Source: a virus. From it: a DNA stretch of 30,634 bases. The notes under the pieces were generated by a model, which saw only the letters and a list, made by a program, of their open reading frames with translations, did not search any database and was not told where the DNA came from. Position 1 is the first letter of the stretch. Each line of letters starts with the position of its first letter. The translations under genes were made by a program, and so were the position numbers. Location: the IMG/VR virus record IMGVR_UViG_3300009104_000080, positions 1 to 30,634 of that record; one strand, written 5' to 3'. Shown piece by piece: positions 1,990 to 27,181 of the stretch.

Positions 1990-2616
1990 ATGGTATTAAA
2001 ACCAAATATAAAAAAAGATTTAGGTTATTTAATTATTGAAAATTTATATTCTGATTCTGAATTAAAATTTATCTGGAATGAGATTAAACATATTGATTAT
2101 GTTTTTGATAAAGTTTTTGATGATGAAAAAAAAGAAGAACACAGAAAAACCCATAATGGTACTAATAAGGATGGGATTCCTTTGATGTCGGGTTTCGGTT
2201 TATCTTTAGATACATTTTATTCTAATAGAGAATTTTCATCAATTATATCAGCTAGTAGAAAAATTTTAGATAAAGAAGTAGTGAAAGAAATGATTACCAT
2301 TAATAATGAAAATACTGCTTATGAATTAGTCAATGAAGATTTTACTTTGTTGAATAAATATAAGACAGGAGAAAGTTATAAGAAACATAGAGATTCATCA
2401 AGTTTTAGTTCAATCACTTTTCTTTGTGAATCAGAAATTAAAGATGGTGGTATAAAGTTTAGTGATTATGATGTAACAATACCTTTTAAAAATAATTCTT
2501 GTGTGATTTTTCCTTCAAGGGTTTATCACGAAACAGAAAGTTTTATTTCAAAAACAGAAAGGTATTCAATTGCACAATTTATGAATATTAAATATTTTAT
2601 TAATCGTAATGCATAG
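1990..2616 (+). CDS. 2OG-Fe(II) dioxygenase (prolyl-hydroxylase-like)
   Basis: A 208-residue protein with the double-stranded beta-helix signature of Fe(II)/2-oxoglutarate oxygenases. The metal ligands are visible as H133-x-D135 (KKHRDSSSF) and H180 (PSRVYHE), with R191 (ERYSIAQF) placed to bind the 2OG carboxylate. GGIKFSDYDVTIPFKNNSCVIFP before the distal His is typical of the P4H/2OG-FeII_Oxy_3 type. Such enzymes hydroxylate protein side chains or small molecules; the substrate is unknown. Its start overlaps no other gene, and its end overlaps the next oxygenase by 8 nt, so the two are probably translated together. Composition is much more AT-rich than the genes upstream, suggesting separate acquisition. 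Confidence 0.85.
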   Translation: MVLKPNIKKDLGYLIIENLYSDSELKFIWNEIKHIDYVFDKVFDDEKKEEHRKTHNGTNKDGIPLMSGFGLSLDTFYSNREFSSIISASRKILDKEVVKEMITINNENTAYELVNEDFTLLNKYKTGESYKKHRDSSSFSSITFLCESEIKDGGIKFSDYDVTIPFKNNSCVIFPSRVYHETESFISKTERYSIAQFMNIKYFINRNA

Positions 2617-3175
2617 ATATTATTATTTTGATAGTGTTATCAGTTCGGAAGATTGTGATAGTTTTGTAAATTCTTTTGATGATAAAGAATTTGATTCAGG
2701 ACAAATTAAACTTGATGATACTGGTAATGAAGGTGAAGGAGAAATTCGTAAATCTAAAGTATTATGGATTGATCCAAAGCATATAATGGTCAGAGCTGTT
2801 TGGTCTTATATTTTAGAAGTTAATACTATGATAGATGGTTTTAATTTATTACTTGATGGATATGAACCAAAAGCACAATTAACAAAATATGATAATATAG
2901 GCGATAATTATAGTTGGCATACAGATACTTTTATTAGTAATAATAAGTCTGATTCTATAAGAAAATTATCATTAAGTTTACAATTATCTAAACCAGAAGA
3001 TTATAAAGGATCTGAATTACAATTATTTAATGGTGATAAAGAACCTGAAAAATTACCGATTAATCAAGGAAGTATTGTAATATTTAGGTCTGAGGAATGG
3101 CATAGAGTTACTCAATTATTAGAAGGTGTCAGATATTCACTTGTATTTTGGGGAACAGGACCACGATTAATTTAG
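2609..3175 (+). CDS. 2OG-Fe(II) dioxygenase (PKHD/PiuC-like)
   Basis: A 188-residue oxygenase, distinct from its upstream neighbour. Iron ligands are H104-x-D106 (YSWHTDTF) and H165 (EEWHRV), with R175 (GVRYSLVFW) as the 2OG-binding Arg. RKLSLSLQLS at 118-127 followed by YKGSELQLF matches the PKHD-type (PiuC-like) hydroxylase core. The ATG lies inside the end of the preceding gene (8-nt overlap), so translational coupling is likely. The two enzymes form a small AT-rich cassette between fibre genes and the late promoter at 3210. Family assignment is confident; the target, perhaps a virion protein, is inference from location. Confidence 0.85.
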   Translation: MHRYYYFDSVISSEDCDSFVNSFDDKEFDSGQIKLDDTGNEGEGEIRKSKVLWIDPKHIMVRAVWSYILEVNTMIDGFNLLLDGYEPKAQLTKYDNIGDNYSWHTDTFISNNKSDSIRKLSLSLQLSKPEDYKGSELQLFNGDKEPEKLPINQGSIVIFRSEEWHRVTQLLEGVRYSLVFWGTGPRLI

Positions 3176-4139: not shown

Positions 4140-5159
4140 ATGACTTTAGCTACATTTGAAACTCCAGAAGTTGGCGCTATAAATTGTCCGGGTGCTACGG
4201 AAGATCAGCACAAGGCAAAAGAATGTGATAATTATGATTTTATCACAACTGCTGATCCAACAAAAATGCAAAAGGCAAGAGAAAATAAAGTTTCGGATAC
4301 AGTAAAAACGGAAGATAAATATTTAAATGGAAAACATGACTTAGAAGGTCATATGAAAATTACTCAAAATTGGACAACTCCAATTGGTGAGTTAGATATT
4401 AAATTGCCAGAAGAAATGAGATTAGGTTTAATTCGTTTTGTTGCTTCCCGTGGTTATTGTACAACAATGGGTACTCATAAGAAAACTCAAACACCTGAGT
4501 TTGAACGAAATCATTATAATCTTTTTGATTATGGTAAAGATGATCCTGAAGGAGAACATATTAGTTCATTTGAAAAAATTTCATCTGAGATTATTCGATA
4601 TTACTTAGCAAATTCTTATGATCTTTCATCTGCAGACGATTTAAGAATTGAGGCAAGAGGATTTGGTAATATGCAGACCTATGGCCGTAGAACATATCCT
4701 CATTATCATCATGGTTTTGATGGTGTGTTTATTCATTACTTAACAGTTGGTGATGAATTTCAAATAAAAGAATTTAGTGATAATCCAAGTGATACGGAAT
4801 TAGCAATGATTCCCGCTGGATCAACTGTTGATCGTATAGAACCCGAAGAAGATCATGGAAAAATTAAAGCTACATTTAATTTAGATGAAGATGATTTACC
4901 TTGTGATGGTTCGGGTAATTTGATTTTATGTGATCCTAGACCTGCTATTAATTATCCTTATTGTAATAAAGCTATTGCGTGGGAACCTAAAGTAGGAACG
5001 ACTTTATTACATCCTGCTTATGTTTGGCATGAAAGTAATCATTTTACAGGTAAGGGAATAAGAGCATCTATTGTAATTAATTATCGAGTTTTAACTAGGA
5101 ATAATTCTGATCTTCTTAAACCACTTAGTAACGTAGATGAACAAGGAAATTTTAGATGA
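4140..5159 (+). CDS. 2OG-Fe(II) oxygenase, 2OG-FeII_Oxy_5-like, copy 1
   Basis: A 339-residue protein. The C-terminal half holds the oxygenase core: H188-x-H190 in [21 protein letters not shown] at 263-269, then [16 protein letters not shown] with H297 and R308 ([10 protein letters not shown]). This order (HxH, DPR, G.lllhP...H, R..i..N) fits the TIGR02466/2OG-FeII_Oxy_5 family of putative oxygenases. Residues 1-60 are a polar extension absent from the shorter paralogue at 7714, as is an insert around 205-255. The next gene starts at its stop codon (ATGA overlap), tying it to the Cys-rich fibre genes. Hydroxylation of the fibre proteins is a reasonable hypothesis, not shown. Confidence 0.75.
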
Positions 5160-5584
5160 GTAGAGCAAGATTGTTAGCAGATTTATTAGAAACAGATGGG
5201 GATGTTAAATCGACTCATTTGGATAATGTGCCTCCGGCTGATTGGTCAAATTTATTAAATAAACCAACTTTAGCAGCTTCTGCAACGACAGATACTACTA
5301 ATGCCGACAACATTACATCCGGAACAATTCCTCTTGCACGTTTAGGATCGGGAACTCCATCTAGTTCAACACAGTTAAGAGGTGATGGTGCATGGGCAAC
5401 AAATTGTACTAATCATGGTAATTGTACAACAGATGGAAAAACGAGATGTTCTAATTGTGATGGATTTATTAAAACCGCAAATTGTCAAGTAGGCTCATCT
5501 TACAATTTATATATTTCTGGTACAGAAATAAAAGCTACTAGTTCAAATTGTAATTGTAATTGTGCTTGCGCTTGTAACTGTTAA
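5156..5584 (+). CDS. Fibre-like protein with Cys-X-Cys tail, paralogue 1
   Basis: A 142-residue protein. Residues 1-65 are a standard marine-phage fibre N-terminus ([43 protein letters not shown]). Residues 84-101 hold a spaced cluster C84-x5-C90-x7-C98-x2-C101 ending in NCDG, like a metal knuckle. A short beta stretch follows, then the protein ends NCNCNCACACNC with Cys at 132, 134, 136, 138, 140 and 142: eleven cysteines in the C-terminal 60 residues. The ATG overlaps the stop of the oxygenase upstream. Two further copies follow. Alternating Cys could bind Fe/Zn at a trimeric fibre tip, form disulphides, or be the substrate of the nearby radical SAM enzyme; all three are inference. Confidence 0.75.
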
Positions 5585-5593
5585 GGAGATACT

Positions 5594-6019
5594 ATGTCAC
5601 AAAATAGATTAATTGCTGATTTAATAGATAGTGGTGGTGATGTAAAATTAACCCATTTAGATAATGTTCCAGAAGCTGATTGGAATACTTTAACAGGAAA
5701 ACCAACTTTAGCAGCTTCTGCTACTACGGATACTACGGATGCCTCAAACATTAGTTCGGGAAGTTTGTCTATGACAAGAATTAAACAAGGAGGTTCACAC
5801 ACTAATTATTTACGAGGTGATAATACTTTCGTAACTAACTGTACTAATCATGCAAATTGTACAACGAATGGAAAAGCAAATTGTGCAAATTGTGATGGTA
5901 CTGCAAAAACAGCTTCTGGTAGTGTTGGATTTAGTGGTTATCTTATAATGACCGGACAGAACATTTCACTACAAGGTGGTAATTGTAATTGCAATTGTGC
6001 CTGTGCATGTAATTGTTAA
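5594..6019 (+). CDS. Fibre-like protein with Cys-X-Cys tail, paralogue 2
   Basis: A 141-residue paralogue of the preceding gene, with the same fibre N-terminus through [21 protein letters not shown]. The same Cys spacing recurs (C83-x5-C89-x7-C97-x2-C100, then DG). The tail NCNCNCACACNC puts Cys at 131, 133, 135, 137, 139 and 141. The middle (residues 105-128, SGSVGFSGYLIMTGQNISLQ) differs and looks like a beta strand pair that could vary the exposed surface. Its stop codon and ribosome site merge (TTAAGGAGATACT precedes this ATG, 9 nt after the previous gene). Tight repetition of both ends with a variable middle suggests duplication and diversification. Confidence 0.75.
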   Translation: MSQNRLIADLIDSGGDVKLTHLDNVPEADWNTLTGKPTLAASATTDTTDASNISSGSLSMTRIKQGGSHTNYLRGDNTFVTNCTNHANCTTNGKANCANCDGTAKTASGSVGFSGYLIMTGQNISLQGGNCNCNCACACNC

Positions 6020-6028
6020 GGAGATAAT

Positions 6029-6517
6029 ATGTCAAAAGCAAGACATTTAGCAGATTTATTAGAATCAGATGGAGATGTTGTTACTGGAGGATTAGACAAT
6101 GCTCCAGACAGAGATTGGAATACTTTATTAAATAAACCAACTCTTGCTGCCTCTGCTACTACGGATACTACTAATGCATCTAACATAAGCAGTGGAATAA
6201 TTCCGAATGGTCGGTTAGGTTTAAATGGTGGTACAGCCAACAGTACAACTTTTTTAAGAGGTGATGGGCAATGGGTAACTAACTGTACAAATCATCCAAA
6301 TTGTAGTACCAATGGACAAGCTCGTTGTTCTAATTGTGATGGTACAATTAAATCAGCCTCAGGAAGTGCCAGTATGGCTAATTGTAACGGAAATAATGCC
6401 TGTGCTTGTGGTTCTTCTGCTGCATCATTATCTTATAGTGGAACAGCAGTAACACTTTCTGGAAATAATGCTAACTGTAATTGTGCCTGTGCATGCGCCT
6501 GTGCTTGCAATTGTTAA
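6029..6517 (+). CDS. Fibre-like protein with Cys-X-Cys tail, paralogue 3 (longest)
   Basis: A 162-residue third copy, with the same N-terminus and the conserved cluster C86-x5-C92-x7-C100-x2-C103. It gains a second Cys island (C119, C125, C127 in ANCNGNNACACG) and a longer tail, Cys at 150, 152, 154, 156, 158, 160 and 162, for fourteen cysteines in all. The alternation is almost purely Cys-Asn and Cys-Ala. It is preceded by TTAAGGAGATAAT 9 nt after paralogue 2. The expansion and contraction of the CX unit between copies suggests slippage in the TGT/TGC-rich 3' end. No other protein in the window is similarly cysteine-rich. Confidence 0.75.
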   Translation: MSKARHLADLLESDGDVVTGGLDNAPDRDWNTLLNKPTLAASATTDTTNASNISSGIIPNGRLGLNGGTANSTTFLRGDGQWVTNCTNHPNCSTNGQARCSNCDGTIKSASGSASMANCNGNNACACGSSAASLSYSGTAVTLSGNNANCNCACACACACNC

Positions 6518-6536
6518 TTAATTAAAGGAGAATAAA

Positions 6537-7667
6537 ATGTTTAGAAAAACATATGATAGTCTTTCAACCGCGGTTCATGTTGAATTTCTGCTTGATAAAG
6601 ATAAAGCATGCATAAAGACTTGGTTAGAAGTTAATAAAAGAGTATGGGACATACAGCAAGAATTTAAAGATAAATTTGAGGATGGATGGAAATATTCTGC
6701 AACAGGTAATTCTGGATGGTCAGATGTACAACCAGGTATTAACCCTTGGAGTTTAGATATGATTCGAGATAAAAAAGATTATGATGGTAATCCAGTTACC
6801 GTAAAACATATCGAAAGATCACTTGATATTCCTAAAAGTCCTTCAATAGGTGAATGGCCAGCAGAAGTTTCTGGTATCTATCATAAATATTTGCCAGCGG
6901 GTAGAATTATGGGACAAACTGTAATGGGTGAACAGTTTTTACCTAATATGCCAGAGAGATATCGTAGTGATTATATTGATCGTTTAACTGGAAAATATTT
7001 TATGGGTACTTCCTTTGCATGGTTAGATTTAACTGATCCATCAATTTTTAGTGGAGAGAAAGATGATGCTGCTTGTTGGGTAATCGGTATTGACTATGAA
7101 GGTAATGCAAGACCTGCATTTAATTCAGTACCAAGAGAAAAAGATACTAAAGCACATCCATTAAGAGCTTCTCGACATGCAGGTAGACCAGCATGTTTAT
7201 TTGTATATCAACCTTTTAGTGATGTACCTTTTGATGAATGTTCAATTACATTGAAATATAATAAAGGGTATGGTTTTAGTACTAATGCAAAAGCTGATTG
7301 GGTTGATGGTACAAATGAAAAAGAAATGTTTGCAACATCTGGAAAAGATTATAATTATGTAGGTCAAATGTATGAAGCTTTTCCAAAATTTATAGTTACA
7401 TCAGGTGGAAATAATATCGCAGCAGACGGAACTGATACAGTCGAATTTAAAATGGTTGATAATGATGGCAAAACTATTGAAAAAGATATTCAATTATTTT
7501 TAGAAGCAACTGGTGGATATTTACCGAAACAAAGATTAACCACTAATAAAGGTGTAGGTACTTTTAAAGTTACAGCCTTAGGTCTTACTTCAGGTGAAAA
7601 ATTTAAAGTAAAAATTGGATTTCGTAATTATACTGGTGTTGCTGATGTTGATTATACAGTAGATTAA
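6537..7667 (+). CDS. Unknown protein with C-terminal Ig-like domain
   Basis: A 376-residue protein I do not recognise. Residues 1-280 are a mixed, Trp- and Tyr-rich globular region with no signal peptide or membrane segment. Notable stretches are WSLDMIRDKKDYDGNPV, GTSFAWLDLTDPS and ACWVIGIDYEGNARPAF. The last 95 residues (from PKFIVTSGGNNIAADGTDTVEF to VDYTVD) look like a bacterial Ig-like (invasin/Big) domain, common on phage virions. AAAGGAGAATAAA gives a strong ribosome site. It sits between the Cys-tailed fibre genes and the second oxygenase, so it may be part of the same fibre or its maturation. The N-terminal region could be enzymatic or structural; I see no catalytic motif. Confidence 0.55.
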   Translation: MFRKTYDSLSTAVHVEFLLDKDKACIKTWLEVNKRVWDIQQEFKDKFEDGWKYSATGNSGWSDVQPGINPWSLDMIRDKKDYDGNPVTVKHIERSLDIPKSPSIGEWPAEVSGIYHKYLPAGRIMGQTVMGEQFLPNMPERYRSDYIDRLTGKYFMGTSFAWLDLTDPSIFSGEKDDAACWVIGIDYEGNARPAFNSVPREKDTKAHPLRASRHAGRPACLFVYQPFSDVPFDECSITLKYNKGYGFSTNAKADWVDGTNEKEMFATSGKDYNYVGQMYEAFPKFIVTSGGNNIAADGTDTVEFKMVDNDGKTIEKDIQLFLEATGGYLPKQRLTTNKGVGTFKVTALGLTSGEKFKVKIGFRNYTGVADVDYTVD

Positions 7668-7713
7668 ATTCTACAAGGGGATTAATATTAATCATTAACT
7701 AATTGAGGACTTT

Positions 7714-8520
7714 ATGACTAATTCTTTGGTAGAAAAACCAGAACATTTAAAATTTTTTGAAGAACATCCAAAGGGAAAAGAACAAGAAGATACTAGAACC
7801 GATCCATTAGATGGCCATGCTAGAATAGAACAACTTTGGACAACGCCTTTCATGGAGGTAGATATAACTTTACCTGATGCAATGCGTTATGATTTGATTA
7901 ATGTTCTACATAAAAAAGAACAATCATTACAAGAAATTCGTGATGAAAATCCTCAGTTTTATTCTATTGTAGATTCAAAAGGATTTTACGCAACTACACA
8001 TTATAATTTATTTGCTAATCCACAAGAGTATCCAGAAAAGGATACTATATTAGAATTTGAAAAAATATCAACTAAATTAATTCGTTATTATATTCGTAAA
8101 GGTTGGGGTATACAACAAGCGGATGAATTAGAACTTGAAGGTAGATGCTTTGGAAATATCCAACAACCTGGTGCGAGAACATATCCTCATTACCATCAAG
8201 ATGTTAATGGTGTTTTAGTTCATTATTTATCTATGGGTGAAGGTAATCTAACAGATAATGTAATGAAAGATTCAGAAAAATCACCAAGACATCCTACTCA
8301 TAATGTTTTATTTCAAGATCCCCGACCAGCAATCGCATATCCATATTGGCAAAAAATTCATGCCGTAACACCAAGAGTAGGATTAACTCTTATTCATCCT
8401 AATTATCTTTGGCACGAAACAAATCCTTGGTTAGGACAAGGAGAAAGAAGTTGTATTGTAGTTAATTTTAGAATTGTATCTCACGGGTATAATGAGTTAA
8501 TTAAACCTTTTCGTTTTTGA
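7714..8520 (+). CDS. 2OG-Fe(II) oxygenase, 2OG-FeII_Oxy_5-like, copy 2
   Basis: A 268-residue paralogue of the gene at 4140. Matching elements are HARIEQLWTTPFMEVDITLP near 35-54, GRCFGNIQ, TYPHYHQDVNGVLVHYL with H159-x-H161, FQDPRPAIAYPYW at 200-212, and RVGLTLIHPNYLWHETNPW with H234 and R245. It lacks the N-terminal extension and internal insert of copy 1. The residue after HxH is Gln here but His in copy 1, so only the first two His are conserved. It is followed 15 nt later by the radical SAM gene, with TTTTAAGGAG between. Two diverged copies in one transcription unit suggest two substrates or two sites on related substrates. Confidence 0.75.
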   Translation: MTNSLVEKPEHLKFFEEHPKGKEQEDTRTDPLDGHARIEQLWTTPFMEVDITLPDAMRYDLINVLHKKEQSLQEIRDENPQFYSIVDSKGFYATTHYNLFANPQEYPEKDTILEFEKISTKLIRYYIRKGWGIQQADELELEGRCFGNIQQPGARTYPHYHQDVNGVLVHYLSMGEGNLTDNVMKDSEKSPRHPTHNVLFQDPRPAIAYPYWQKIHAVTPRVGLTLIHPNYLWHETNPWLGQGERSCIVVNFRIVSHGYNELIKPFRF

Positions 8521-8535
8521 TTTTAAGGAGAAAAC

Positions 8536-9909
8536 ATGGCGAAGTTTAAATTTTATTTAGAATCTCCAAAAGAAGATGGTAAAGAGATTGTATTAGATTA
8601 TGATAATGATACATCTGAATTACGTTTTGATAATGGAGATATTGTAGTACCTCAATCTGAATATCGAGATTGGAAACCTTTTTACAAAATGGATGAAGGT
8701 AAAAGACAACTTAAAACAATTAAAATACAGTTAGGTTTGAAATGTAACTATTCTTGTGAATATTGTTCTCAAAGATTTGTTCCTAGAAATCCAGATGATA
8801 CTTATGCTCATCAAGACGAATCTGAAAAAACCGCAAATGAAATTGAAGAATTTGTTAATAAATTTGAAGGTATAGAAATAGATGAAGAACCCCATTTTGA
8901 GATGTGGGGTGGAGAACCTTTTTTATATTTTCCAAAAATGAAATTAGTAACTTTGTATTTAAGTGAAAAATTTCCTAAAGCTACTTTTAGTGTTATAACT
9001 AATGGTTCTTTACTTAATCAGGAAATTATAGATTTTCTTGAACAATATGATTTTTCTGTTTCTATTTCTCACGACGGTCCTGGTCAAAAAACTAGAGGTC
9101 CCGATCCTTTAGATGATCCAGAACAAAAGAAATGGTTATTTAAATTAAGAAATATTTTAATGCCAAAAGGTAAATTTTCTGTTAATGCAATGATTCATAA
9201 AGATAATGATAGTCGTGCAGAAGTTAATCGTTGGATTAAAAATCAGTTTGGTATGGTTCCAATAGGAGAAGGTGGTGTAATTGATGCATATGATGAAGGT
9301 GGTGTATCAATGTCTTGGAAAACAGAAGATGAACATATTGGATATAGAAGAAAAGCATTTAAAGAAGTAATGAATAAAAAGATTGAACAATTTACTATGT
9401 TAGAAGGAAAAATTCAAAATTTTATTGATTCATTAAAAGAACAAAGACCTTCTTCATCTTTACTACAAAAATGTGGTATGGATATGCCAAGTACAATTTC
9501 AACAGACTTAAATGGAAAAATAACAACTTGTCAAAATGTAACTACATCTTCTAATAATCCAGCGGGTATATCACATGAGATTGGTACACTTGAAAATTTA
9601 GAAGAAGTTAATATTAAAACAGGAACTCATTGGTCAGATCGTGTAGAATGTCCTAAATGTCCTGTATTACATTTATGTCAAGGAAGTTGTTTATTTTTAA
9701 GTCCTGATTCAAAAGAATGGGAACTTTCTTGTGAAAATTCATATAGTGATAATGTTGTTTGGTTAGCAGCATCATTGTATGAACTTACAGGAAAAATTTT
9801 ATATAAGATTGAAGGTCCTCAACCAGAACATAGAAAAGATATTTTTGGATTTCAAAAAGACGAATATATTAAAAAAGCAGAAGAAAGGGAAGCTGTAACG
9901 ACAAATTAA
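8536..9909 (+). CDS. Radical SAM/SPASM maturase
   Basis: A 457-residue enzyme. The radical SAM cluster motif is C70-x3-C74-x2-C77 in LGLKCNYSCEYCSQR, with GGEP at 125-128 for SAM binding. The C-terminal SPASM domain is complete: C313-x13-G-x4-C332, then C372-x2-C375-x5-C381-x3-C385, then C399, the seven ligands expected for two auxiliary 4Fe-4S clusters. SPASM enzymes include anaerobic sulphatase maturases and sactipeptide, mycofactocin and quinohemoprotein maturases, which modify Cys, Ser or other residues of proteins and peptides. The N-terminal 60 residues precede the TIM barrel and may bind substrate. It lies in the late block with the Cys-tailed fibres, the obvious candidate substrates. 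Class is certain by motif; substrate is inference. Confidence 0.92.
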   Translation: MAKFKFYLESPKEDGKEIVLDYDNDTSELRFDNGDIVVPQSEYRDWKPFYKMDEGKRQLKTIKIQLGLKCNYSCEYCSQRFVPRNPDDTYAHQDESEKTANEIEEFVNKFEGIEIDEEPHFEMWGGEPFLYFPKMKLVTLYLSEKFPKATFSVITNGSLLNQEIIDFLEQYDFSVSISHDGPGQKTRGPDPLDDPEQKKWLFKLRNILMPKGKFSVNAMIHKDNDSRAEVNRWIKNQFGMVPIGEGGVIDAYDEGGVSMSWKTEDEHIGYRRKAFKEVMNKKIEQFTMLEGKIQNFIDSLKEQRPSSSLLQKCGMDMPSTISTDLNGKITTCQNVTTSSNNPAGISHEIGTLENLEEVNIKTGTHWSDRVECPKCPVLHLCQGSCLFLSPDSKEWELSCENSYSDNVVWLAASLYELTGKILYKIEGPQPEHRKDIFGFQKDEYIKKAEEREAVTTN

Positions 9910-9912
9910 ATT

Positions 9913-10221
9913 ATGCGTGAATTTTCTTCTATACCATTTTATCGTTTTATGATTAAAGGTGGGAAATTTGATCGAGTTGAATATTTTTATAAACATATTG
10001 TAGCTCGGAAAATGAACTCTCCTGGACAGTATGAATTGTCTTTTGAATTTGAGATTCTTGGAGGTAATTATAAAGATCGTGGGTATGATTCAGACCAAGA
10101 ACATTTAAATACTAAAGTTAATGAAACCAACGAGGAATTATTTATTGAAGAAATAAAAGAAATACTTAATCATTTAGTTTCGATAAAAGACGCACGACTT
10201 CTTATACAATGGATAGAATGA
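9913..10221 (+). CDS. Unknown small protein after the radical SAM gene
   Basis: A 102-residue protein starting 3 nt after the radical SAM stop codon, with no clear Shine-Dalgarno sequence, so translation probably depends on coupling to that gene. It is mixed alpha/beta: aromatic N-terminus (FSSIPFYRFMIKGGKFDRVEYFY), a central strand pair (YELSFEFEILGGNY), and a helical acidic C-terminus (EELFIEEIKEILNHL...LLIQWIE). No Cys, signal peptide or membrane segment is seen. The tight pairing suggests an accessory or substrate-binding partner of the radical SAM enzyme, as in peptide maturation systems, but I do not recognise the family. Confidence 0.55.
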   Translation: MREFSSIPFYRFMIKGGKFDRVEYFYKHIVARKMNSPGQYELSFEFEILGGNYKDRGYDSDQEHLNTKVNETNEELFIEEIKEILNHLVSIKDARLLIQWIE

Positions 10222-10233
10222 GTGCATTTTTTT

Positions 10234-10241
10234 TATAAATA
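10234..10241 (+). promoter_or_regulatory. T4-type late promoter TATAAATA
   Basis: Exact late consensus just after a T-run, in the only gap (about 47 nt) between the radical SAM block and the next virion genes, 27 nt before the ATG at 10269. It probably starts the 10269-12870 fibre/virion unit and may read on into the neck genes. Confidence 0.75.
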
Positions 10242-10268
10242 CAAGAAAACCGCTTTATAGGATTAAAA

Positions 10269-10613
10269 ATGGCAGCAATTTTAGATCAAACAATAGATCA
10301 AGGTACATCATACAGTAATACTATTACCGTATTTCAGTCTGATGGAACAACGGCATTAGATTTAAATGGCTATACTGTTGCTTCACAAATTAGAAAGAAT
10401 TTTACTTCTTCTTCATTTCATACAATTACTTGTACAATAGTTTCACCCACTACTACAGGTAAAATTAATTTAACTTTAACTCCAGCACAAACTGAAGCTA
10501 TCAAATTTGGATATTATTATTATGATGTAGAAATTACATCAGGCTCAGGAACAGTTACAAGAGTTATTGAAGGAAAAATGCACATTAAACCAGGTGTAAC
10601 AAGAGCATCTTAG
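10269..10613 (+). CDS. Virion protein, Ig-like beta-sandwich
   Basis: A 114-residue all-beta protein. The pattern DQGTSYSNTITVFQSDGTTALDLNGYTVASQIRK, then TGKINLTLTPAQTEAIKFGYYYYDVEI and a final VIEGKMHIKPGVTR, is a recurring phage and prophage virion fold, similar in layout to baseplate/BppU-type N-terminal domains. It ends with VTR as those do. The ATG follows AGGATTAAAA. It is first after a late promoter and is followed by two more virion-like genes. Structural role likely; precise location on the particle unknown. Confidence 0.6.
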   Translation: MAAILDQTIDQGTSYSNTITVFQSDGTTALDLNGYTVASQIRKNFTSSSFHTITCTIVSPTTTGKINLTLTPAQTEAIKFGYYYYDVEITSGSGTVTRVIEGKMHIKPGVTRAS

Positions 10614-10626
10614 AGAGGAAATACTA

Positions 10627-10842
10627 ATGAGTAATTTAGTAGTTAAAACTTTATTTACAAGTGATCCATCTGATGTTATTAAGGTAACAACATCTTTGGG
10701 TACAGCAAATGTTAATGATTTAGCTGATGTTGATACTTCTGAAACAATACCAAACGATGCATTATTAATTTGGGATACAAATACTGCGAAGTATAAACCT
10801 ATTTCGTATAAAACTTTAGTAATAGATGGACAGACATTTTAA
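10627..10842 (+). CDS. Small virion-associated protein
   Basis: A 71-residue protein with an acidic centre (NVNDLADVDTSETIPNDALLIWDTNTAKYKPIS) and the ending LVIDGQTF. NDALLIWDTNTAKYKP is a motif seen in phage fibre and structural proteins, where such segments link shaft domains. The closing VIDG-x-TF also ends the large fibre encoded next, suggesting a shared C-terminal element. AGAGGAAATACTA precedes the ATG, 13 nt after the previous stop. Probably a minor fibre or connector. Confidence 0.55.
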   Translation: MSNLVVKTLFTSDPSDVIKVTTSLGTANVNDLADVDTSETIPNDALLIWDTNTAKYKPISYKTLVIDGQTF

Positions 10843-10861
10843 ATATTAAGGGGATAAGAAC

Positions 10862-12451
10862 ATGCCGAATGTCATACAAATTAAAAGAACAACTACATCT
10901 AATATCCCTACTTCCAATTCTGGTGGAGATATTACTGCTGGTGAATTAGCATATTCTTACTCTGCTGCTGACGGAAGTGGAAATGAATCGGGTGTAGGTA
11001 AATTATTTATAGGTCATGCAGATGGATTAGCTGGAGCAAATGCTGCCGCAATTATTGGTGGATCATTTTTTACAAATATGTTAGATCATACTGCCGGAAC
11101 AGCAACGGCTAATTCAGCAGTTTTACTTGATGGTAATTTACATACCGATCATGTTAAAACAACTAATTTACATATTGGTAATTCTGGGAGCGCAACACAA
11201 GTAACTGCAACGGGTGCAGAATTAAATATATTAGGTGGTGCTACTTTATCTACATCTGAATTGAATACACTTACTGGTATTACTGCTTCAACGACAGAGT
11301 TAAATAAGATAGATGGATATACAGGAACTACTGCACAATTAAATACTGTTGATGTAACTCCCGGAACATTAACTGCAAGTAAAGCAGTTGTTGTTGATTC
11401 AGATCAACATATAGATAATTTAAAAACTGGTACTTTACATTTGGGGGCAGCAGGAAGTACTACTGCTGTAACTGCATCAGCAACCGAGTTGAATTTGTTA
11501 GATGGTATAACAGAAATTGATACAGATATTACAAGTGTTGCTGCAACTCATACTACGTTAGCATCAGCAAAAGCAATTAAAGCATATGTTGATTCTAACC
11601 GTGCAGGATTAGAAGTTAAAGATTCGTGTCGAGTAGCAACAACTGCTCATCTAACTGCTACATATAATAATGGTGCATCTGGTGTTGGAGCAACTTTAAC
11701 TAATTCTGGTTCACAAGCAGCAATTGCAATTGATGGTGTAACACTAAATGCAAATGAAAGAGTTTTAGTTAAAGATCAAACATCTGCGGCACATAATGGT
11801 ATCTATAAAGTTACTGATGTTGGAAATGGATCTACTAATTGGATATTAACTAGAACAACTGATGCTGATACAACCGCTGAATTAAATTCAGGTGTATTTA
11901 CTTTCGTAGAAGAAGGTACTAGTAATGCAAATCACGGGTTTACTATGACCCAAGATACTACTATTAATTTTGGAACAACAACTGTTACATGGACTCAATT
12001 TTCAGGAACAGGAATGATAACGGATGGTAACGGGTTATCAAAATCTGGAAATACCATGGCGGTTAATACTGGTACGGGTATTACAATTACATCTGATAAT
12101 GTAGTTATTGATACAGCATGGGCGGGACAAGCTGCTATTACAACTGTTGGAACTATTGGAACAGGTACATGGGCAGGAACTGCTGTTGCTTCAGGATATG
12201 GTGGAACTGGCATTGATACTTCAAGTTCAACTGGTATTCCAATAGTTACAAGTGGTACTTGGTCAATCTCTGCTTCATTAGGAACTGCTTCTGGTGGAAC
12301 AGGTGCAACAACATTTACTTCTAATGGTATATTATATGGTAATGGTGCTGGAGCAATACAAGTTACTGCTGCTGGTACTAATGGTTATTTTTTATATTCT
12401 AATGCTGGAACACCAGCATGGACAAATGTAATAGATGGAGGAACATTTTAA
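10862..12451 (+). CDS. Large tail fibre with Mtd-like N-terminus and repeats
   Basis: A 529-residue fibre. The N-terminus (VIQIKRTTTSNIPTS...GELAYSY...GKLFIG) matches the small beta domain at the front of the major tropism determinant (Mtd) and many fibres. Residues about 115-210 carry repeated TELN-type units (ATGAELNILGG, TSELNTLTGI, TTELNKIDG, ATELNLLDGI). Then comes the widely spread segment LEVKDSCRVAT...VLVKDQTSAAHNGIYKVTDVG. The C-terminus has GGTG units (GYGGTGID, ASGGTGATT, GILYGNGAGAIQVT) and ends VIDGGTF. It is preceded by AAGGGGATAAGAAC. A trimeric host-recognition or side-tail fibre is likely. No diversity-generating reverse transcriptase is present in the window. Confidence 0.8.
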   Translation: MPNVIQIKRTTTSNIPTSNSGGDITAGELAYSYSAADGSGNESGVGKLFIGHADGLAGANAAAIIGGSFFTNMLDHTAGTATANSAVLLDGNLHTDHVKTTNLHIGNSGSATQVTATGAELNILGGATLSTSELNTLTGITASTTELNKIDGYTGTTAQLNTVDVTPGTLTASKAVVVDSDQHIDNLKTGTLHLGAAGSTTAVTASATELNLLDGITEIDTDITSVAATHTTLASAKAIKAYVDSNRAGLEVKDSCRVATTAHLTATYNNGASGVGATLTNSGSQAAIAIDGVTLNANERVLVKDQTSAAHNGIYKVTDVGNGSTNWILTRTTDADTTAELNSGVFTFVEEGTSNANHGFTMTQDTTINFGTTTVTWTQFSGTGMITDGNGLSKSGNTMAVNTGTGITITSDNVVIDTAWAGQAAITTVGTIGTGTWAGTAVASGYGGTGIDTSSSTGIPIVTSGTWSISASLGTASGGTGATTFTSNGILYGNGAGAIQVTAAGTNGYFLYSNAGTPAWTNVIDGGTF

Positions 12452-26379: not shown

Positions 26380-26400
26380 TTTAAGTTTGTTTTTAACTAA

Positions 26401-26432
26401 GGGGGATGGGGTTTTACCCCTCCCCCTTTTTT
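26401..26432 (+). terminator. Strong Rho-independent terminator after gp23
   Basis: GGGGGATGGGG pairs with CCCCTCCCCC (one bulged T) around a TTTTA loop, followed at once by TTTTTT. It lies 21 nt after the gp23 stop. This is the best intrinsic terminator in the window and should end the gp22-gp23 message. Confidence 0.9.
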
Positions 26433-26446
26433 ATTTGGAGAATGAT

Positions 26447-27181
26447 ATGAGTAACGCATATTCGCAATACGGTTTTATTAATCGTCATGTAGCACAAAAT
26501 AGACCAGAGGTTTATAATGATGTTTGTGATTTTTCTAAGGGAGATAGATTTATTGGAGTTTATAAAAATATATTATCTCCAGAATTTTGTAAGAATTTAA
26601 TAGAAACATATGAACATTATAATAACACTACACCAGATGATGCTCTTGGCAGAGAAGTAGAAGATCCAAGAGGATTTCGGTGTGATGATTTATATATTGA
26701 ACAAATACCAGAATTTATTGAAGCTTCTGGAACTCTGTTTCATTTCTTATGGGAACATTATAATAAATATGAAAAAACATTTGATATTTTATCGTGGTCT
26801 CCTAAATTGATTGCCATGCCTTTGAAAATGAGAAAAGTTAGTAAAGAGAATAAAGAAAGTAATTGGGAATATCATTATGAACAACAATCAGATGATATAC
26901 AATCACAAGGTAGAATTTTAACCTTTATGTATTATTTAAATGATATTGAAGAAGGTGGGGAAACAGAATTTGTTTATCAAGATCGTTTAAAAATCAAACC
27001 TACTACAGGAACCTTGTTAATCTGGCCAGCAGGGTTTACTCATACTCACAGAGCATTACCGATATTAAATGATGAGCCAAAATATTTAATTACAGGATGG
27101 ATTATGTTTGATAAATTGTTTGATAACTATTTCGGTGAAAAGAAAGAATATATAGAGAAACTTAATAAAGAAAATGCATGA
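26447..27181 (+). CDS. 2OG-Fe(II) oxygenase, prolyl 4-hydroxylase-like with HxE
   Basis: 244 residues from ATG 26447, preferred because TTGGAG lies upstream; a longer frame would start inside the terminator. Core: H143-x-E145 in WEYHYEQQ, then RILTFMYYLNDIEEGGETEF at 156-175, KIKPTTGTLLIWPAGFTHTH with H199 (or H201), and K212 in PKYLITGW at the position usually taken by the 2OG-binding Arg or Lys. This is the P4H-type arrangement. Substrate unknown. It overlaps the nuclease gene by 8 nt and lies just past the gp23 terminator, so it is probably expressed weakly or from an unseen promoter. It is a different branch from the other four oxygenases. Confidence 0.82.
   Translation: MSNAYSQYGFINRHVAQNRPEVYNDVCDFSKGDRFIGVYKNILSPEFCKNLIETYEHYNNTTPDDALGREVEDPRGFRCDDLYIEQIPEFIEASGTLFHFLWEHYNKYEKTFDILSWSPKLIAMPLKMRKVSKENKESNWEYHYEQQSDDIQSQGRILTFMYYLNDIEEGGETEFVYQDRLKIKPTTGTLLIWPAGFTHTHRALPILNDEPKYLITGWIMFDKLFDNYFGEKKEYIEKLNKENA

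Follow-up and report, generated by a model that had tools for sequence, protein, structure and literature searches.

Distal iron tips built from HxH motifs have been reported for phage T4 and proposed for marine phages (PMC11705849). Radical SAM enzymes with a SPASM domain carry the motif CX9-15GX4C-gap-CX2CX5CX3C-gap-C, and in one of them, CteB, the AuxI cluster has an open coordination site at which a substrate cysteine can interact (PMC6231123). Thioether acceptors in ranthipeptides are Asn (NxxcA, Cys23-Asn20), Asp (freyrasin, Cys-Asp), and Thr (CteA), and the SPASM radical SAM enzyme QhpD installs Cys-Asp/Glu thioethers within a functional protein (PMC8326336). On the phage side, a study of pelagimyophages found the host recognition cluster to contain inserted radical SAM cassettes, for which it gave no function (PMC7029224).

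Here, we analyzed a stretch of 30,634 nucleotides (positions 1 to 30,634 of the virus record IMGVR_UViG_3300009104_000080), referred to as the window. Its G+C content is 33%, and strong PHROG profile matches for tail sheath, tail tube, portal, terminase, and major head protein identify it as a fragment from a T4-like marine myovirus. Three of its genes encode fibre proteins with C-terminal tails of alternating cysteines. We propose that the tip of these virion fibres probably undergoes a RiPP-like maturation, in which the radical SAM/SPASM enzyme encoded at 8536-9909 would use the tails as its substrate segment and staple them by thioethers.

The fibre paralogues are arranged in tandem on the plus strand at 5156-5584 (142 aa, 11 Cys), 5594-6019 (141 aa, 10 Cys), and 6029-6517 (162 aa, 14 Cys); over the aligned part, the second and the third are 60% and 70% identical to the first, respectively. 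The tail reads NCNCNCACACNC in fibre 1 (5546-5581) and also in fibre 2 (5981-6016), with six cysteines each, and NCNCACACACACNC in fibre 3 (6473-6514), with seven. Upstream of the tail, all three share a spaced cysteine cluster of the form C-x5-C-x7-C-x2-C-D-G (NCTNHxNC-x7-C-x2-CDG), located on the same strand at 5402-5464, 5837-5899, and 6281-6343. The ORFs, identities, and tail sequences thus bear out the initial annotation, which had described three tandem paralogues with alternating-Cys tails and a spaced cluster. Its boundaries of 5156-6517 are correct for the fibre ORFs, but the functional unit is larger and extends from about 4140 to 9909. Searches of Pfam, PHROGs, and NCBIfam gave no strong family for the fibres, the best match being phrog_5342 (tail fiber; E 1.1e-04) for fibre 3, and fibre 1 showed only short N-terminal matches to cultured phages by tblastn, namely to pelagiphages and one roseophage.

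The fibres are part of a conserved cassette consisting of CxC fibre, an Ig-domain protein designated protein X, one or more 2OG-Fe(II) oxygenases, and a radical SAM/SPASM peptide maturase, with all genes on the plus strand in the window. An oxygenase gene of the PF13759/phrog_81 type (4140-5159) overlaps the start of fibre 1; the matches of its product were to Pfam 2OG-FeII_Oxy_5 with E 5.9e-05, which is under the curated cut-off, and to phrog_81 with E 7.5e-08. Protein X (6537-7667) has an N-terminal part that is uncharacterised and has only uncharacterised viral matches, and a C-terminal intimin/Big_1-like Ig domain; its structure model (pLDDT 82) gave Ig-like structure matches, e.g., to intimin 1f00. 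It is followed by a PF13759 2OG-Fe(II) oxygenase with an HQD motif and a distal WHE (7714-8520; Pfam E 2e-09, over the cut-off) and by the radical SAM/SPASM enzyme (8536-9909; phrog_1802 E 8e-58, Pfam Radical_SAM E 1.5e-11). Neighbors were tallied at 124 distinct enzyme loci, of which 86 contain one connected fibre cluster, 76 protein X, 57 a PF13759-type oxygenase, and 43 a lambda-J/Tal-like host-specificity protein; P2/Mu-like loci have instead a weak Asp/Asn beta-hydroxylase match (PF05118, E 0.022).

Oxygenases are numerous in the window, whose 30 kb encode no fewer than five of the 2OG-Fe(II) type (1990-2616, 2609-3175, 4140-5159, 7714-8520, and 26387-27181). According to an alignment by eye, some cassette PF13759 proteins (window 4140-5159; 11186-11995 of L005) carry HHG or HHA in place of the iron-binding HQD of their sibling at 7714-8520. 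Gly or Ala at that iron-ligand position is typical of 2OG halogenases.

Fibre and enzyme served as queries to retrieve further viral contigs. Tails adjoin the enzyme in T4-like, podovirus-like, lambda-like, and sheath-bearing (P2/Mu-like) phages. The cassette order of the window recurs in a second T4-like group (L006, L007), in a podovirus-like contig with four CxC fibres (L005/L029), and in L030. In lambda-like phages (Achromobacter phages JWF and 2-1; L031), the fibre beside the enzyme is a different one but bears a tail of this kind, and in sheath-bearing P2/Mu-like prophages (L032-L039) a protein of 77-108 aa ending in NCACACDCACACSK or similar stands beside it. These small CxC-tail proteins (8171-8502) directly follow a fibre whose C terminus is intramolecular-chaperone-like. 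In Thalassobacter stenotrophicus, three separate cassettes were seen (L200, L210, L235), and their tails read NCNCNCRC.

The anatomy of the tails was compared over 101 distinct enzyme-linked examples, which are runs of 3 to 10 cysteines. Asn (238), Ala (80), and Asp (41) account for 359 of the 395 residues between cysteines (91%), and the residue preceding the first Cys is Asn in 82 of the 101 tails. The proteins bearing them are mostly fibres of about 70-600 aa. The tail forms the C terminus in 94 cases, and in the other 7 it lies directly before a Hint domain, which starts with CFPAGT... and has weak, correctly placed Pfam matches (PF05203 and relatives). Hint domains cleave themselves off ahead of their Cys, and we infer that such self-cleavage would leave the tail C-terminal in these proteins as well. 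Short precursors released as the product, as in RiPPs, were not found among the tail-bearing proteins, and the predicted removal of Hint is the one release step that is apparent.

The linkage of tail and enzyme was analyzed by an enzyme-blind scan of viral contigs for DNA encoding CNCNCNC (at least 120 stretches, redundancy removed). Among the matches listed, at least 29 non-redundant clusters of C-terminal CNCNCNC tails were obtained; a member of the phrog_1802 family (372-555 bits) is encoded on the same strand at most 2.5 kb downstream in 20 of these 29 and a more distant radical SAM protein (122-153 bits) in 4, while 5 were not evaluable because the contig ends within 3.5 kb. Genetic linkage of substrate and modifying enzyme, as in RiPPs, was accordingly seen in 24 of 24 evaluable clusters listed, each with a radical SAM gene downstream, and in none of the 53 control loci with out-of-frame CNCNCNC, where the matches listed did not include even a 100-bit match to a radical SAM protein. 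A first tally of the matches listed had given the enzyme at 28 of 36 in-frame C-terminal tail loci versus 0 of 35 loci at which the pattern falls outside any open frame (Fisher p 8e-13). A scan for CACACAC yielded one true tail, nearly all other matches being low-complexity or antisense frames. The distant radical SAM protein is paired with CNCNCNC tails in L120/L046, L052/L130, and L152, and L052 has four radical SAM ORFs.

Seen from the enzyme side, at least four alternating cysteines were present in 58 of 79 bacterial loci, which are mostly prophage-like regions of Beta- and Alphaproteobacteria, although a few of these runs are out-of-frame noise. Of the remaining bacterial loci, several are truncated contigs or carry tails that are short or broken up (NCDCHC, NCNCMG, NCNCDCGG). 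About one fifth of the bacterial enzyme loci are without a tail, and these include many truncated contigs and some members of a non-phage subclade. Homologous marine fibres from viruses in which the enzyme was not found have no tail, and most have no cysteine. The initial annotation had regarded homologues with unconserved cysteines as evidence against its reading of the tails; such homologues were seen to some extent, but they do not contradict the link to the enzyme and rather support it, since tail and enzyme are absent together.

The CxC tail is not a product of chance, because it recurs in independent phages and prophages, nearly always at the C terminus or just before Hint, and because the same enzyme family or a distant radical SAM protein is present wherever the flanking sequence of the tails listed suffices. 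The near-constant downstream radical SAM gene suggests that the fibre tip is chemically rebuilt, before the host is met, by an enzyme of the type known from peptide antibiotics. From this gene linkage we propose the tail of fibre 1 as a radical SAM substrate, and it is very probable that such tails are the substrate of the cassette enzyme.

Three options had been put forward in the initial annotation for the tails, namely binding of Fe, Zn, or clusters in the manner of the T4 HxH tip, inter-chain disulphides, and enzyme-made cross-links. The last agrees best with the data, as the gene for a radical SAM/SPASM maturase lies 2 kb downstream and accompanies such tails almost without exception, whereas bare metal or disulphides explain this linkage poorly since neither would need a dedicated enzyme. 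A metal-holding needle, in which three unmodified CxC strands of the trimeric fibre would hold Fe, Zn, or small Fe-S clusters along the axis as a cysteine counterpart of the T4 gp37 HxH tip, is unlikely. It would suit the alternation, which is as in HxH, the distal position, and the marine phage context, but it leaves unexplained both the near-absence of tails without a peptide-modifying radical SAM gene and the strict choice of N/A/D between cysteines, and tails also occur far from a marine iron context, e.g., in the sewage phage JWF. The HxH pattern of T4-type tips was not found in the tails, which are CxC with N/A/D in between.

The linkage might also arise if the target of the enzyme were protein X, host lipopolysaccharide, or something else, with the tails being simple disulphide or metal sites that merely share the cassette. 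Co-occurrence of protein X and oxygenases would agree with this, as would the reading of pelagimyophage radical SAM genes as cassettes of the host-recognition region (PMC7029224). However, protein X and the oxygenases are missing from many loci at which tail and enzyme stay together, the tail resembles a RiPP core, and relatives of the enzyme are found in RiPP-like clusters, so that we regard this explanation as quite unlikely. The relatives concerned are non-phage proteins (L217, L220, L232, L233, L236, L237; about 6400-11300) that adjoin a YcaO-nitroreductase fusion and an ATP-grasp protein, and the same loci encode a Cys-containing peptide of 65-70 aa with a DC(S/G)-x-ISP-like core; together, this looks like an undescribed RiPP cluster.

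The features of the enzyme itself are in line with a peptide maturase carrying a SPASM domain. The CX3CX2C motif of the AdoMet cluster is located at residues 70-77 of the window enzyme and is present in 121 of 121 homologues. The SPASM domain has seven cysteines, i.e., C313, C332, C372, C375, C381, C385, and C399; the first two and the three AdoMet-cluster cysteines occur in all 121 homologues and the other five in 120. Their arrangement in the window enzyme (CX13GX4C, CX2CX5CX3C, then C) is the SPASM motif, and the corresponding regular expression, with the upper spacing relaxed to 17, matched 116 of the 121 homologues. AuxI has three of the usual four cysteines, as in CteB, and no Cys lies between C313 and C332 in the 121 homologues. 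An AlphaFold2 model, for which two phage-collection sequences were left out of the alignment, reached a pLDDT of 85 and a pTM of 0.85, with the RRE-like N terminus only partly formed. Its nearest solved fold is CteB (5wgg; Z 23.3 over 366 residues, rmsd 4.5), followed by ChlB (21.2), anSMEcpe (20.4), and TigE (18.8). The best NCBIfam matches are peptide and protein maturases, all far under their cut-offs.

Two other chemistries were weighed against these data. An anSME-like enzyme could turn tail cysteines into formylglycine, the aldehydes of which would react covalently with host-surface amines, and the fold match to anSMEcpe (Z about 20) and the deposition of the JWF gene as anaerobic sulfatase-maturating enzyme point in this direction. 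Yet the residue after C332, at the position of anSME Asp277, which we take to be the catalytic base, is Gln in 110, His in 8, and Asn in 2 of the 121 homologues and hence one of these three in all but one, and none of the 121 has the fourth AuxI Cys, which in anSME is C261. The anSME combination of a catalytic Asp after the second AuxI Cys and a fully ligated AuxI was not found among them. On this residue evidence, formylglycine chemistry of the anaerobic sulfatase type was down-weighted and appears very unlikely. Conversion of alternate residues to the D-form, by which the tail would fold as a beta-helix as in polytheonamide, would fit the strict alternation and the Asn/Ala-rich intervening positions, which recall PoyD substrates. 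The fold match to the epimerase EpeE (Z about 13), however, is far weaker than that to CteB (23), and we consider epimerisation highly improbable.

The favored reading, RiPP-like maturation of the fibre tip, can be outlined as follows. The cassette would be the equivalent of a RiPP maturation operon, with a virion tail-fibre protein in the role of the precursor. Once the fibre has been translated, its tail cysteines would be captured by the enzyme, probably at an open AuxI site, and radical chemistry would join their sulphurs to neighbors, most likely the intervening Asn or Asp (or Ala), so that the distal tip would become thioether-stapled and protease-resistant. As a plausible second step, a 2OG oxygenase may hydroxylate Asn or Asp of the tail segment, and in some phages self-cleavage of the Hint domain following the tail would expose the modified tail at the C terminus. 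Thioether stapling is favored because cysteines alternating with Asn, Asp, or Ala fit the known acceptor set; judged from homology and composition, a thioether, probably from Cys to Asn or Asp, is nevertheless a tentative assignment of the product. Because rings between Cys(i) and residue i+1 or i-1 would be very small, the actual bonds probably reach across more residues or between chains. Protein X or another chain might also supply the acceptor. A modified tail peptide was not seen in the databases examined. We infer a host-binding function of the modified tip, and it is possible that the modified tail also binds metal.

Beyond annotations and gene lists, no link between radical SAM enzymes and tail fibres was found in the open-access full text searched. 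On this basis, the fibre tail would be an unprecedented substrate for RiPP-like radical SAM maturation. We know of no virion protein for which a role as radical SAM substrate has been demonstrated. The arguments are about evenly balanced as to whether these fibres represent a widespread, undescribed class of phage receptor-binding fibres, with a covalent tip built by a radical SAM enzyme (multiple Cys-Asn/Asp thioethers, possibly hydroxylated or metal-loaded) through a virus-encoded RiPP-type pathway and sometimes unmasked by Hint. If the proposal is true, phages build a presumed host-touching part of the virion by RiPP-type radical chemistry, phrog_1802 radical SAM genes, now filed as generic or auxiliary metabolic, obtain a function, and these enzymes form a new group of maturases whose substrates follow a simple rule (N-C-x-C). 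Achromobacter phages JWF and 2-1 offer cultured entry points for studying the role of the modified tip in adsorption.

Compared with known systems, the phrog_1802 protein of these two phages is of the same enzyme family (42% identity) and is encoded beside a CxC-tail fibre followed by Hint, and its designation as "radical SAM domain-containing protein" is annotation only, with no function or link to tails in the searchable literature. The T4 gp37 HxH iron tip and marine HxH fibres likewise have alternating metal-capable residues at the distal end, but the T4-type tip uses His and is not known to need an enzyme, whereas the tails described here use Cys and show strict linkage to radical SAM genes. 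QhpD/PeaB, the maturase of quinohemoprotein amine dehydrogenase, was the best NCBIfam match of the window enzyme (E 1.8e-17), but with 63 bits against a cut-off of 453, and its substrate and host are unrelated to the phage case. The ranthipeptide models were not reached by the enzyme either (PapB 61.5 versus a cut-off of 340, SCIFF maturase 32 versus 425). SCIFF/ranthipeptide systems (CteA-CteB, NxxcA, freyrasin PapA-PapB) nonetheless share with the phage cassette the seven SPASM cysteines, the three AuxI cysteines, and a linked Cys-rich substrate; in these systems the substrate is a free peptide, whereas in the phages it would be the C terminus of a fibre with strictly alternating CxC.
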